From Bacillota bacterium (GTDB lineage Bacteria > Bacillota > Sulfobacillia > Sulfobacillales > Sulfobacillaceae): a DNA stretch of 64,000 nt. The notes below the pieces were generated by a model. That model was not told where the DNA came from and searched no databases. It saw only the letters and a list, made by a program, of their open reading frames with translations. Positions 3,826 through 11,108 of the stretch are shown here, piece after piece. The position numbers were made by a program, and so were the translations under genes. The stretch covers positions 248,001 to 312,000 of the forward strand of contig JAIMBD010000002.1 of NCBI GenBank assembly GCA_023511625.1, given 5' to 3'. Numbering within the stretch: position 1 is the first letter of the stretch; each line of letters begins with the position of its first letter.

Positions 3826-4974
3826 GTGGCGCAACCGGTTCGCATCGGCCTTTTGGGATATGGCACCGTGGGTCAGGCGTTCGTGACCCTGCTCAAGCAG
3901 CAGACCGCACTGCCCGCCGAGGTCGAGATCGCCCTCGTGACTGATCTCGGGCGCCCGCGCGAAGGCCCTCCGATTCCTTTGACGACCGACGCGCGGGAAG
4001 TCGTGGCCAATCCGCGCGTAGACTTAGTGGTCGACGTCATGGGCGGGCGGTACCCGGCTTATCAGTGGGTGCGTGAGGCCATCCTCAATGGAAAGTCGGT
4101 GGTCACTGCCAACAAAGAGGTCATGGCGTATCACGGCTCGGAGCTGCTGCAACTGGCCTTTGAACGCGGAGTCCACCTTCGCTATGAGGCCAGCGTAGGC
4201 GGCGGCATCCCCCTCATCGAACCGTTGCTGTCGCATTTTCGCTGGGGGCCCATCGATGCCGTCATCGGCGTGCTGAACGGCACCACCAATTTCATCCTGT
4301 CTGCCATGGAAAAGGGGGAGCCGTACGAGCAAGCCTTGGCCATGGCTCAAGCCAAGGGGTATGCCGAGGCCGACCCCAGTGCCGACGTACTGGGATACGA
4401 TGCGGTACGCAAACTGACCCTGATCATCCGCATGGTCTTTCACTTCGAGGTGAGTCCTGACGCCATCCCGTGCCGCGGCATCGACCAAGTGACCGTCGAT
4501 GACATCGTGCGGGTGGCTCACTGGGGCTACCGCATTAAGCTAATCGCCCGCGCGTATCGGGGCGGACGGGCGATGGTGTGGCCCACCTTGGTCCCTGCCA
4601 ATCACCGATTGGCGTTCTTGGAGGACAACCAAAACAGCTTGTGCCTATACCTGTGGTCGCAGGAGTATTGGTTAGAGGGTCCGGGGGCCGGCGGGCCAGC
4701 CACGGCGCTGAGCGTGCTGTCGGACGTCTATCGCGTCATCGTCCAACGCGACCTCGGCCCCCGCGAAACCGTGCTGCCTGTGCGAGAACTGCAACCGATG
4801 GCGCCGGAGTGGATCCTGTTTCCGGTCGACCCGGATCGGGTCGTGGTCCCGACCGCGTTTCCGGAATTCGGGTTGTGGAACGGCCAATATTTCCGCACCG
4901 AGCCGACCCCCATCGGCCAAGTGGAGCAGTGGCTGGCCGAGCGGGAAGGCTTCAAGGCCTATCCCCTGCTGTAA
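3826..4974 (+). CDS. hom: Homoserine dehydrogenase without ACT domain, 382 aa
   Basis: Reduces aspartate semialdehyde to homoserine with NAD(P)H, the branch point to threonine and methionine. The N-terminal Rossmann motif is IGLLGYGTVGQAF, followed by VDVMGG, the SVVTANKEVMA segment and the catalytic-domain signature GVLNGTTNFILS, then YAEADPSADVLGYDAVRKL with the conserved Asp and Lys. The late GPGAGGPATALSVLSDV loop is also intact. Most Firmicute enzymes are about 430 residues with a C-terminal ACT domain for threonine feedback; here the C-terminal 60 residues do not look like ACT. GTG at 3826 follows GGGGAAAGGA. No thrB or thrC is adjacent. Confidence 0.9.
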   Translation: MAQPVRIGLLGYGTVGQAFVTLLKQQTALPAEVEIALVTDLGRPREGPPIPLTTDAREVVANPRVDLVVDVMGGRYPAYQWVREAILNGKSVVTANKEVMAYHGSELLQLAFERGVHLRYEASVGGGIPLIEPLLSHFRWGPIDAVIGVLNGTTNFILSAMEKGEPYEQALAMAQAKGYAEADPSADVLGYDAVRKLTLIIRMVFHFEVSPDAIPCRGIDQVTVDDIVRVAHWGYRIKLIARAYRGGRAMVWPTLVPANHRLAFLEDNQNSLCLYLWSQEYWLEGPGAGGPATALSVLSDVYRVIVQRDLGPRETVLPVRELQPMAPEWILFPVDPDRVVVPTAFPEFGLWNGQYFRTEPTPIGQVEQWLAEREGFKAYPLL

Positions 4975-5005
4975 GGCCGGCGGCCCCCACCGGGCACCGC
5001 CGGCC
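4975..5005. terminator. GC-rich hairpin between convergent hom and transglycosylase genes
   Basis: GGCCGGCGG (4975-4983) and CCGCCGGCC (4997-5005) form a 9-bp perfect stem with a 13-nt loop, starting directly after the hom stop codon. There is no T tract on either strand, so termination efficiency is uncertain. It is placed to serve both converging transcripts. Confidence 0.5.
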
Positions 5006-5011
5006 GGGATT

Positions 5012-5761
5012 TCAGCGTTGCAGGAGGCGCTCCTCTGCCAAGCGCACAGCCTCGCGCACCAGGTTCCCGCATTGGCGTGCCGGCACCGCCCCCCAGCCGT
5101 GTTCACGGACCAGGTCAGCGACTCCCAGGCGCTCGCCGAGCTTCAACTTGGTGTCCTCTGACATCCACTTGGCCATGGCTCCACCCCCCGCCACAGTGTG
5201 TCCGATGCCACCCCAGCCGTATACCCATCGATACCAGCGCCGATACCACAGGACGCGGGCCACAAAGGCCCGGGTCTCTGGGTAGGGAACGGCCTGCCAA
5301 TCCACACTGCCCGGGGTAAGCCGGCCCATCCGAATCCAGCGGTCGACGGTAGCCGGTCCACTGTTGTAGGCCGCGAGCGCCAACACCACATCCCCCCGAT
5401 ATCGCCGGAGCAAATACGCCAAATACCAACCGCCCAAGGCGATGTTGGTGCGCGGGTCGCCGAGGTTTATGGCCTGGCCCGGAGCCAACGGCGCATGGGG
5501 TTGTCCCGCAATCCAGCGCGCCGTGTCGGGCATCAACTGCATCAGCCCCATGGCGCCCCGGCGGCTGACGGCATCCGGCCGATACCGGCTCTCGACCCGG
5601 ATCACGGCCGCGATGAGGTAAGGATCCACGCCCATCCGGTCTGCCTCCTGGTAAACCCAACCGGCATACGGAAACGGGACTTGCCAGCGGATGGCCAACA
5701 CCCCCAAGGCCACGACCGTCAAAAGCGCGATCCACCACCGGTGCCGGCCAATTCTCGCCAT
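5012..5761 (-). CDS. Lytic transglycosylase fused in frame to an alpha/beta-type SASP-like domain, 249 aa
   Basis: Residues 1-25 are a membrane anchor or uncleaved signal. Residues about 35-165 are a soluble lytic transglycosylase (SLT) domain: AAVIRVESRYRPDAVS with the catalytic Glu at 57, GAMGLMQLMPDTA, ALGGWYLAYLLRRY and LALAAYNSGP, as in enzymes that cleave peptidoglycan glycan strands. After a Gly-rich linker the frame continues without a stop into residues 196-249, which resemble clostridial alpha/beta small acid-soluble spore proteins (LGVADLVREHGWGAVPARQ, CGNLVREAVRLAEERL). The SASP-like part has its own ATG at 5176 but poor Shine-Dalgarno spacing. ATG at 5761 has a strong GAGGTGGAGG site. 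The gene overlaps coaE by 43 bp. Confidence 0.8.
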   Translation of the reverse strand: MARIGRHRWWIALLTVVALGVLAIRWQVPFPYAGWVYQEADRMGVDPYLIAAVIRVESRYRPDAVSRRGAMGLMQLMPDTARWIAGQPHAPLAPGQAINLGDPRTNIALGGWYLAYLLRRYRGDVVLALAAYNSGPATVDRWIRMGRLTPGSVDWQAVPYPETRAFVARVLWYRRWYRWVYGWGGIGHTVAGGGAMAKWMSEDTKLKLGERLGVADLVREHGWGAVPARQCGNLVREAVRLAEERLLQR

Positions 5762-6330
5762 GCCGCCTCCACCTCATTTCGCAGAGCCGTCAGGTCGCCG
5801 TCGTTCTCGAACACGCGGCTCGCGCGGCGCCGTTTCTCCTCTTGGGGCCATTGCGCGGCGATGCGCGCCAGGGCCTGGTGGCAACTGAGCCCGTCGCGGG
5901 CCATCAGCCGCGCGCGTTGCACCTCCGGTGACGCTGTCACCACCCACACCTGGTCAAACCATGACTCCCACCCAACTTCAAACAGCAGCGGAAGGTCGAC
6001 CACCACCGGCAACGGGGTGCCCTTTTCGGCTTCGGCTACCGACGTCCAAAGAGCTTGGCGGATCAAGGGATGCATGACGGCATCGAGGCGCTGGCGCGCC
6101 CGGGGATCGGAAAATACCAAACGTCCCAACTTCTTGCGCTGAAGTCGCCCGTGGGCGTCGAGCACCCACCACCCGAAGGCCTCCCACACGGCACGCCATC
6201 CCGGGGCACCCGGCTCCTGCAACCGGCGGGCCACCGCGTCGGCGTCTATGACCACGGCGCCCAAAGCCCGCAGCATCGCCGCGACGGTCGATTTCCCAGT
6301 GGCAATGCCGCCGGTAAGCCCGATGCGCAT
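5719..6330 (-). CDS. coaE: Dephospho-CoA kinase, 203 aa
   Basis: Catalyses the last step of coenzyme A synthesis, ATP-dependent 3'-phosphorylation of dephospho-CoA. The P-loop GLTGGIATGKST begins at residue 4, followed by VIDADAVARRL, the lid/CoA region VMHPLIRQALW, and VVVDLPLLFEVGWESWFDQVWVV, all in family order. Length is normal (about 200). The position matches the conserved polA-mutM-coaE order of Firmicutes, here with two extra genes between mutM and coaE. It starts 6 bp after the substrate-binding-protein gene stop, and its 3' end overlaps the transglycosylase gene, so translation is probably coupled. Confidence 0.95.
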   Translation of the reverse strand: MRIGLTGGIATGKSTVAAMLRALGAVVIDADAVARRLQEPGAPGWRAVWEAFGWWVLDAHGRLQRKKLGRLVFSDPRARQRLDAVMHPLIRQALWTSVAEAEKGTPLPVVVDLPLLFEVGWESWFDQVWVVTASPEVQRARLMARDGLSCHQALARIAAQWPQEEKRRRASRVFENDGDLTALRNEVEAAWRELAGTGGGSRF

Positions 6331-7511: not shown

Positions 7512-7703
7512 CTAGGCTCGCTTCCCCGGCAATTGGTCTACGAGGTCCTCCGGCAGGTCCACCTCGCTGATGACATCGACCTTCACGGCGCGGTCCAGCG
7601 GAACTAGGGCCACCTCCCCCCGTACGCCAAGCTCGTGCCACAGCCGTTGCACAATCGCCTCGGCCGTTTTCAGGTCGTCCACCAACAGGCTAAACTGTTG
7701 CAT
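7512..7703 (-). CDS. Conserved-looking small protein of unknown function, 63 aa
   Basis: A short acidic-amphipathic protein, MQQFSLLVDDLKTAEAIVQR onward, with no signal, membrane segment or cysteine cluster. I do not recognise a family. It is likely real: ATG at 7703 has a GAGGGAG ribosome site, the start overlaps the end of mutM by 14 bp, and its TAG abuts the ATG of the next gene, so it is embedded in a translationally coupled polA-mutM-x-SBP-coaE operon. The predicted alternation of helix and strand and the LVDDLKTAEAIVQRL opening would suit a small ferredoxin-like alpha/beta fold, which is only a guess. Confidence 0.65.
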   Translation of the reverse strand: MQQFSLLVDDLKTAEAIVQRLWHELGVRGEVALVPLDRAVKVDVISEVDLPEDLVDQLPGKRA

Positions 7704-8577
7704 ACTGCGTCTCCCTCTTCTCGCCGCCTGGCCCAGCCGCCGCGTCATCTTTCGGCCGTTGGCACCGCGGGCAAAAGTGGCTGCTCCGGCCGCCGACCTC
7801 CAGCACCGCCACCGGAGCGCCGCAGCGCGGGCACGGCTGCCCGCCCCGGCCGTAGACTGCTAAGTGGTGCTGGTGCTCACCGGGGTGTCCTAACGCGTCG
7901 ACATAGTCCGAAAATGAAGTGCCGCGGTGGCGCAGGGACCGCCGCAAGACGGTCCGCACGGCCCGCACCAGCTGGTGGAGCTCCGGTTCGACAAGTCGGC
8001 CCCCCGGCGTCGCGGGGTGGACGCGGCAGAGGAACAAGGCCTCATCGGCGTAGATGTTGCCTAAACCGGCCACGATGCGCTGGTCCAACAACAAGGCCTT
8101 GATCGGCGCCCGGCGTCCGGCCAATCGCTCAGCGAGATAGGCGGCCGTAAACGCCCGCCCCAAGGGCTCCACCCCCAACTGAGCCTCAAGCCCGGTGCGA
8201 TCCGGCGCCCAATCCACCCGTCCAAAGCGGCGCGGATCGGCCAAGCGCAGGTGACCACCACCTGCCACGCTCAGGACCAGGTGCGTGTGCGGACGCCAGG
8301 GTTCGGCGGGGTCGGCTTCCCAGGTCAGCCGCCCGCTCATCCCGAGATGGATGACGAGATACCCCCCGGGACGGGTCAATGCCATCCACAGATATTTGCC
8401 GCGCCGCCCCACCCGCCGCACCACGGCCCCCGTCACCCGTCGGACGATGGTTTCCGCCCTCCCGGCCCCTCCGCGCACCATCCGGGGGTCGAGATGCACC
8501 ACTTGGTCGATGCGCCGACCCGCCAGGATCTGGTCGAGATACCGGCGAATGGTTTCCACCTCCGGTAATTCGGGCAT
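7690..8577 (-). CDS. mutM: Formamidopyrimidine-DNA glycosylase, 295 aa
   Basis: Removes oxidised purines (8-oxoguanine, FapyG) and nicks the abasic site. The N-terminus MPELPEVETIRRYL provides the catalytic Pro2 and Glu3, GRRGKYLWM contains the conserved catalytic Lys, HLGMSGRL follows, and a C-terminal zinc finger is visible as CPRCGAPVAVLEVGGR then FCPRCQ. GLGNIYADEALF (helix-two-turn-helix) is present. Length is normal for MutM. The ATG at 8577 overlaps the polA stop by one base (TGATG), giving coupled synthesis of two base-excision-repair enzymes. A 15-residue tail after the zinc finger overlaps the next gene. Confidence 0.97.
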   Translation of the reverse strand: MPELPEVETIRRYLDQILAGRRIDQVVHLDPRMVRGGAGRAETIVRRVTGAVVRRVGRRGKYLWMALTRPGGYLVIHLGMSGRLTWEADPAEPWRPHTHLVLSVAGGGHLRLADPRRFGRVDWAPDRTGLEAQLGVEPLGRAFTAAYLAERLAGRRAPIKALLLDQRIVAGLGNIYADEALFLCRVHPATPGGRLVEPELHQLVRAVRTVLRRSLRHRGTSFSDYVDALGHPGEHQHHLAVYGRGGQPCPRCGAPVAVLEVGGRSSHFCPRCQRPKDDAAAGPGGEKRETQYATV

Positions 8578-11108
8578 CAAGAAACCTCCCTGGGGGCAAA
8601 GGCCTGCAAGGCCTCCCAATTCGGCCCCCGCTTGAACTCGACTTGCAAGGGGACGTTCAAGGGCAAGGCGCCCGTCATCGCCCGGTCGGCCAGGGCCGTC
8701 AGCTGATCCAGCTCCTCCGGCGCCGCATCCCAGATCAGCTCGTCGTGCACCTGAAGGATGAGGTGGCTTTTCAGCCCCGCCGCGACCATGGCGCGATCCA
8801 CCGCCACCATCGCCAACTTGATGAGGTCTGCAGCACTTCCCTGCACCACAGTGTTCATGGCCATCCGCTCCGCCATCTGCCGCCGAGTGCGGTTGCGGTC
8901 GCGGATGTCGGGCAAGGGCCGGCGGCGTCCCAAGATGGTGGTGACGTAACCTCGGCCTCGGGCCTCTTCCACCACCGCGTCGAGATACTGTTTGACCTTG
9001 GGGTACCGGGCAAAGTACTGCCGAATATACTCCGCGGCCTCGGCCCGCGTTACGCCGGTATCGCGGGCCAGGCCAAAATCAGAGATGCCGTAGACAATAC
9101 CGAAGTTGACCGCCTTGGCTCGATTGCGCCAGGTGGTGTCCACCGCATCCAAGGGCAATCCGAAGATCTCGGCCGCCGTCCTGCGGTGGATGTCCTCCCC
9201 TTCCACAAAGGCCTGAATGAGCCCTTCGTCTCCAGACAGGTGGGCCAGCATCCGCAATTCAATTTGCGAGTAGTCGGCGGCCACCAGCTCCCGACCAGGG
9301 CTGGGCAGAAACATGGCGCGCACCCGACGGCCGATGGGCAGGCGAACCGGGATGTTCTGGAGGTTGGGGTCGCTCGACGACAGACGCCCGGTAGCCGCCA
9401 CCGTCTGATGGAAGGTGGTGTGCAACCGGCCATCGGGCCCCACCAGCGGCAAAAGCCCATCCACATACGTCCCCTTGACCTTGGTCAACTGCCGCCACAA
9501 CAGGATTTTCTCCACCACCGGATGCAGGGCCGCCAAGGTCTCTAACGTCTCGGCATCGGTCGAGTAGCCGGTTTTGGTCCGTTTGACGGTCGGTAACCCC
9601 AACCGCTCGAAGAGCACCTCCCCAAGCTGCCGGGGCGAGTTCAGATTGAACGGGCCCTTGGCCAGCGCGTAGATTTCCGCCTCCAAATCGCGCAGCGCCT
9701 GAAAAGACTCCTCGCCCAACCGGCGCAACCCTTCGCGATCCACCCGGACGCCCACGGCCTCCATCTTGGCCAACACGCGCATCAGCGGCAATTCCACGTC
9801 CCGATACAGGGGCATCAGGCCCGCCGCCTCCAAGCGTGGCGTCTGGGCCGCGACCACCGCATGCACCAGGCGCGCCTGCCCCAGGCCCTCTCCAACCGGG
9901 CCGAGTCCCAGCCGTTGGGCCACGCGCCCCAGCCGATAGTCGCCGGCCTCCGAATCGAGCAGGTACGCCTGCAGTGCCCCGTCATCGACCACCTCTGGCA
10001 GGGTCCAGCCCAAGGTCAGCGCTCGCCGCACCACCGGTTTGACATCCCAGCCCACCCAGGACCTCACGGGAGGCAGGGGGTCGTGTGGCCACAGCACCCC
10101 ACGGCCGTCTTCCAGCCAAATGGGATACGGGGGCCCCAAAACCGGAGCCAACGTAGCCCGCGGGATGGAGTCCCAAACCACCGTCCCCGGGTCTACCGCT
10201 TCCACCGCCGCCGGCTCTTCGGCCAACGGTACCGGATCGACCCGCCCGAACAGTCGCCGTTTAATGGATTCAAACGCCATCCGGTCCAGCCACGCCGCCA
10301 ACGCCGGCGTTTTGGGAATCCGGTAAGGCTCGGGCAGTTCGGGCCAGGTCACCGGCGCATCGCATCGGATAGTCGCCAACCGCTTCGATTCGAAGGCCGT
10401 GGCCTCATGGGCCGCCAACGCTGCACGGACGCGGGTTTCGGCAATGGCGTCGAGGTGGCGGTACACCTCCTCAATCGAACCCCAGCGCTGAATCAGTTTT
10501 AGGGCGGTCTTCTGTCCGATACCGGGCACGCCCGGGATGTTGTCCGACGCGTCGCCCATCAGCCCTTTTAAATCCGGTATCTGCTCGGGGCGCACCCCCA
10601 TGCGCGACGCCACTTCGTCCTCGCCCAGCACCTCCATCTCCGTGATGCCGGTGCGCGCCATCAACAGCACCTTGACGGGAGGCCGGACCAGTTGTAACAG
10701 GTCGCGGTCGCCGGTCAAGATCAAGCTGGCATATCCGCGAGCGGTCCCCAGAGCGGCCAAGGTCCCGATGACATCGTCGGCCTCGTACCCGTCTGCCCCC
10801 ACCGAGGCCATCCCCAACTGATGGAGCAGTTCCTGGACCAGTGGGATTTGAGCCCGGAAGGCATCCGGAGCGGCCTCGCGGGTGGCCTTGTACTGCGCGT
10901 AAGCCAAATGGCGAAAGGTTGGCTGTTCGGTATCAAACACCACCACCACGCGGTCCGGCTGGGTGTCCTCCACGGCCTTCAGCAGCATGGTGCAAAACCC
11001 GTAAACGGCGCCAGTCGGAGTGCCATCGGGCAGGGACAGGGTGGCCGGCAAGGCGTGAAATGCTCGGAACATGAGGCTGTATCCGTCTACCAACAACTGC
11101 GTCGGCAC
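8577..11108 (-). CDS. polA: DNA polymerase I, 843 aa, proofreading domain degenerate
   Basis: Gap-filling and primer-removal polymerase. Residues 1 to about 290 are the 5'-3' exonuclease (LLVDGYSLMFRAFHALP, GYEADDVIGTLA, LTGDRDLLQL, GDASDNIPGVPGIGQKTA). The middle 3'-5' exonuclease region (about 290-450) lacks the DxE and YxxxD metal motifs, so proofreading is probably lost as in Taq and Bacillus enzymes. The polymerase part has motif A (DYSQIELRML), motif B (RNRAKAVNFGIVYGIS) and motif C (LQVHDELI). GTG at 11108 has GGGGAG at six bases; an upstream ATG at 11135 is less favoured. It heads the operon running to the transglycosylase. Confidence 0.96.
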   Translation of the reverse strand: MPTQLLVDGYSLMFRAFHALPATLSLPDGTPTGAVYGFCTMLLKAVEDTQPDRVVVVFDTEQPTFRHLAYAQYKATREAAPDAFRAQIPLVQELLHQLGMASVGADGYEADDVIGTLAALGTARGYASLILTGDRDLLQLVRPPVKVLLMARTGITEMEVLGEDEVASRMGVRPEQIPDLKGLMGDASDNIPGVPGIGQKTALKLIQRWGSIEEVYRHLDAIAETRVRAALAAHEATAFESKRLATIRCDAPVTWPELPEPYRIPKTPALAAWLDRMAFESIKRRLFGRVDPVPLAEEPAAVEAVDPGTVVWDSIPRATLAPVLGPPYPIWLEDGRGVLWPHDPLPPVRSWVGWDVKPVVRRALTLGWTLPEVVDDGALQAYLLDSEAGDYRLGRVAQRLGLGPVGEGLGQARLVHAVVAAQTPRLEAAGLMPLYRDVELPLMRVLAKMEAVGVRVDREGLRRLGEESFQALRDLEAEIYALAKGPFNLNSPRQLGEVLFERLGLPTVKRTKTGYSTDAETLETLAALHPVVEKILLWRQLTKVKGTYVDGLLPLVGPDGRLHTTFHQTVAATGRLSSSDPNLQNIPVRLPIGRRVRAMFLPSPGRELVAADYSQIELRMLAHLSGDEGLIQAFVEGEDIHRRTAAEIFGLPLDAVDTTWRNRAKAVNFGIVYGISDFGLARDTGVTRAEAAEYIRQYFARYPKVKQYLDAVVEEARGRGYVTTILGRRRPLPDIRDRNRTRRQMAERMAMNTVVQGSAADLIKLAMVAVDRAMVAAGLKSHLILQVHDELIWDAAPEELDQLTALADRAMTGALPLNVPLQVEFKRGPNWEALQAFAPREVS

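Follow-up and report, generated by a model that had tools for sequence, protein, structure and literature searches.

The continuous open reading frame at 5012-5761 on the reverse strand of the window (the whole stretch of 64,000 nucleotides that was analysed) very probably represents two adjacent genes, an SLT-family lytic transglycosylase gene and, behind it, an sspF-type gene with its own start encoding a small acid-soluble spore protein (SASP), the joined frame being incidental. This reading is based on the presence of the two as separate genes in relatives, the strength of the Shine-Dalgarno (SD) sequence at the SASP start, the concordant position of a -10-like motif and a linker that is unconstrained as protein. 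The SASP would be translated from its own ATG by means of its own SD, probably in the forespore and from a sigma-G promoter within the final SLT codons, and by analogy with other SspF proteins it would then coat the spore DNA. Neutral drift of the SLT tail would account for the continuous frame. The features of the locus are listed in Table 1.

Table 1. Features of the SLT-SASP locus in the window
Feature	Position	Strand	Basis or remark
SLT-family lytic transglycosylase gene	5177..5761	-	PF01464; frame continues into the SASP gene with no stop between
sspF-like alpha/beta SASP gene, 54 aa, own ATG at 5176-5174	5012..5176	-	SspF identity; separate in most relatives; third-position substitution bias
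Linker between SLT domain and SASP	5177..5221	-	Protein constraint not evident
Shine-Dalgarno GGGGGGTG for the SASP start	5182..5189	-	Anti-SD pairing -13.9 kcal/mol
Putative sigma-G type -10, CACACTG (CATACTA or CATAATA in some relatives)	5194..5200	-	Positional concordance
Tentative -35, GTATA, inside conserved SLT codons	5220..5224	-	Fits GHATR 5/5
GC-rich hairpin just 3′ of the SASP stop, possible terminator, no clear T-run	4975..5006	-	Fold

Organization of the Locus

An ORF check of the window showed the frame to contain 249 codons without an internal stop, running from the SLT lytic transglycosylase into the last 54 residues, as had been described in a reading made from the sequence only. 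A Pfam search detected the SLT domain (PF01464) at residues 38-144 (E 3.4e-29; 101 bits compared to a cut-off of 21.3), and by this catalytic domain the product of the SLT gene is predicted to be an SLT lytic transglycosylase. It resembles other SLT-domain lytic transglycosylases (PF01464) in its strong domain match, but differs in being short and in having a C-terminal tail whose coding DNA overlaps sequences that probably regulate the gene downstream. A hydrophobic stretch at the N-terminus of the 249-aa protein, recognized by eye, is compatible with a membrane anchor.

The start of the SLT gene (5761, reverse strand) overlaps the end of an upstream coaE-like gene (approximately 5719-6330) by about 43 nt, and a mutM-like gene was found farther upstream (7690-8619), both names being assigned by eye. 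Because of this overlap and the upstream mutM-like gene, the SLT gene looks like a member of a housekeeping operon. Downstream of the SASP gene, the region 4960-5014 was predicted to fold with -35.7 kcal/mol (z -3.3), and the hairpin listed in Table 1 was not picked up by a terminator scan.

Identity of the 54-Residue Product

Residues 196-249 of the frame, which begin at the ATG with its first base at 5176, resemble SASPs. The profile search proposed in the sequence-only reading gave no match for these residues alone in Pfam or NCBIfam. When the genome was searched with PF00269, three other SASPs were found and the 54-residue gene was missed; matches did appear at the level of the orthologues, 16 of the 26 matching PF00269 weakly (best E 0.0014), the window member not being among them. 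The orthologues form a tight group (alignment A1), and with a profile built from A1, one of the canonical SASPs of this genome was detected (E 1e-5). A tblastn search with the family consensus found Bacillus subtilis SspF (E 1e-7), which showed 41% identity to the window SASP over 49 residues. The A1 profile and B. subtilis SspF thus settled the family where Pfam and NCBIfam were silent and, judged by this homology, the 54 residues make up a true SspF-type alpha/beta SASP. The family had been named correctly in the sequence-only reading; that reading had also considered that homologues might show the C-terminal segment to be something else, and they proved to be SASP-related. Free SASPs are disordered, and a search of solved structures found no relative.

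SspF constitutes a group of its own within the alpha/beta SASPs (Galperin and colleagues, PMC3533761), and sspF has been listed among the sigma-G-dependent genes (PMC3416734). Compared to SspF/Ssp4-type minor alpha/beta SASPs, the window SASP shares both the length and the core MSxxxK...LG...GWG...R..GN.V..A...AE, and the four residues that precede GGHMV in canonical alpha/beta SASPs are missing in SspF and in the A1 group alike. The surroundings differ, since B. subtilis sspF is located between veg and ispE (yabG-veg-sspF-ispE), whereas the window gene is located behind the SLT gene.

Fused and Separate Forms among Relatives

Homologous loci with named records came from Sulfobacillus species and related metagenome-assembled genomes. 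The SASP gene was found to follow the SLT gene in 33 Sulfobacillus-group loci, and the comparison of related genomes that had been suggested in the sequence-only reading showed the two domains to be separate genes, with the SASP out of frame or preceded by a stop, in 25 of these, the remaining eight having a fused open frame. Counting the window, the fused frame was present in 9 of 34 loci, several of which fall within one half-resolved branch; in the isolate Sulfobacillus harzensis (L079; DSM 109850) it was uninterrupted, and S. thermotolerans has two separate genes. In the closest relative of the window (same genus; L008/L065), the SASP is separate, in frame +1, and overlaps the SLT frame. 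On the protein tree, in which the sister of the window is unfused, the fused label requires five changes, at least four of them by well-supported branches. A single G in the G-run of the SD was shown to toggle between the fused and separate states in one pair of loci (L089 and L091; 679 of 771 aligned positions identical, 88%). The SLT orthologues end mostly before or around the SASP start, and in the 26 loci in which the marker motif was found, the phase of SLT relative to the SASP frame was distributed as 10, 6, and 10 over the three phases. Moorella and Bacillus homologues of the SASP stand without SLT, and for the 20 loci that are less closely related (from Moorella and other Clostridia), the flanking DNA examined contained no SLT gene. 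An SLT-SASP fusion was not reported in any title or abstract searched.

Codon positions were compared among fused relatives, as sums over four comparisons with shared members. Differences at positions 1:2:3 amounted to 15:9:97 in the SASP part and 70:51:132 in the SLT part, compared to 19:16:20 in the linker of 15 codons. This flat spread means that the linker is not visibly constrained as protein; the features kept within it are the -10-like motif and the G-run. Thus, neither a constrained linker nor retention of the fusion among relatives, as expected of a true fusion, was found.

Start Codon and Shine-Dalgarno Sequence

The SD spacing at the ATG had been called poor in the sequence-only reading, which was not borne out: the G-run lies about 7 nt from the ATG, and when 53 start-like codons of the region were compared, the SASP start showed the best anti-SD pairing, as scored with a generic bacterial 16S tail. 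In all 33 relatives the SD of the SASP start scored -12.9 kcal/mol or better. Relatives were found to carry TTG, GTG, or CTG at the position of the SASP start, whether the locus is fused or not, which marks this position as a start codon rather than just a codon within a longer frame. With a separate gene in 25 of the 33 relatives and a conserved SD of its own, the product has the appearance of a free small protein made from its own start. CTG at the conserved start together with a strong SD was seen in L010, L017, L019, L021, and L022 and in the fused L015 and L018, and initiation at CTG in some members of the family is possible.

Candidate Sigma-G Promoter

Thirty canonical SASP genes of this family served to train a -10 matrix (CATACTA, GATACTA, GATAATA). 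Its best match was located 23-27 nt upstream of the start, a position window of 5 nt, in 29 of the 33 loci, compared to at most 11 in 500 shuffled sets; owing to the relatedness of the loci, a control stretch inside SLT reached a concordance of 17, and the 29 is thus less significant than the shuffles suggest. Taken alone, the -10 of the window is a weak match (1.9 bits), ranking fourth within 450 nt. GHATR is the sigma-G -35 consensus. The signal of the GTATA candidate is partly confounded by coding conservation of SLT, and its spacer to the -10 is 19 nt in the window versus 17-18 nt in most relatives. In one branch, SLT already stops 41-65 nt upstream, and its loci have GCATG, GTATG, or GAATG at 17 nt from CATAATA, CATACTA, or near variants; these motifs are located in non-coding DNA and are therefore free of such confounding. 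The canonical SASP genes have a somewhat different -35 (GGGTAA-like, with a shorter spacer). The predicted transcript would have a leader of no more than about 11-12 nt and would carry the SD at its extreme 5′ end. A sigma-70 scan found nothing useful.

A sigma-G promoter for the SASP within the last SLT codons is considered likely. The strong conserved SD and the sigma-G-like motif support a nested product with internal initiation in the forespore, which had been one of the two options in the sequence-only reading.

Alternative Explanations

The other option, a true functional fusion in which the working product is a 249-aa SLT-SASP protein, a cell-wall enzyme with a tethered domain of the DNA-binding type, was rejected on the comparative evidence and is considered highly improbable. 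The frame is uninterrupted in the window and in eight relatives, one of them an isolate, but most relatives, the closest one included, are unfused, the states interconvert by single-base changes, the linker is unconstrained, the SD and -10 are kept at the SASP start irrespective of fusion, and such a protein would have its SASP part on the outer side of the membrane, separated from the DNA. No element of the sequence would prevent ribosomes that initiate at the SLT start from producing the run-on protein of 249 aa. Given the N-terminal hydrophobic segment, its SASP part would be placed outside the membrane, where it would probably be inert; that lineages with an open frame make a useful run-on SLT-SASP in vegetative cells, for instance for binding extracellular DNA or altering the enzyme, seems most doubtful. 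An assembly or sequencing error that hides a frameshift, with the locus of the window really unfused, was likewise judged unlikely, with a very small probability. The six-G run at the junction and the pair of relatives toggling by one G make it conceivable, but the window and its unfused sister share the same G-run, the one-base difference in length between them is located elsewhere (in the stretch from a conserved TACGG to the G-run), and several assemblies, including that of an isolate, contain fused frames.

There is a modest chance that the SASP gene is separate but has no promoter of its own, being translated from the transcript of the SLT operon, either through coupling to SLT translation or through internal ribosome entry. 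Against this, the position of the -10-like motif is kept even where SLT stops 41-65 nt upstream, and a housekeeping operon transcript would mistime a SASP, SASPs normally being sigma-G genes; for it speak the SLT stop at 1-5 nt from the SASP start in several relatives, the unusually short leader that an embedded promoter would give, and an SD strong enough for internal entry.

With two adjacent genes as the preferred reading, the locus would be a tidy example of a sporulation gene having its ribosome-binding site, and probably its promoter, in the tail of the preceding gene, an arrangement in which the two frames drift in and out of fusion. The significance beyond annotation is small: automatic gene calling would probably give one 249-aa fusion, and sspF would be lost in such genomes.

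Particular Features of the SspF-Like Group

Compared to the usual germination protease (GPR) site region, YELAKDLG, Glu is replaced by Lys throughout the A1 group (LKLGERLG; KLKLGERLG), so the Glu of the cleavage region (E-I/L-A) is missing in the window SASP and its group; the canonical SASPs of the same genomes retain it (KYEVAHELG). This Glu has a role in cleavage and was not treated as needed for SASP homology. On account of the replacement, the SspF-like proteins of the A1 group may escape the germination protease. The window SASP also differs from B. subtilis SspF by a Cys (RQCGN) that SspF does not have. This Cys (RQCG; residue 36 of the SASP) was seen to be conserved in the window, L102, L001, the Moorella homologues, and the canonical SASPs of this family.

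Two more divergent SASP genes (L002 and L003) were found in convergent orientation within 1 kb (G000:C14:173462-174336), and similar convergent SASP pairs recur in many relatives.
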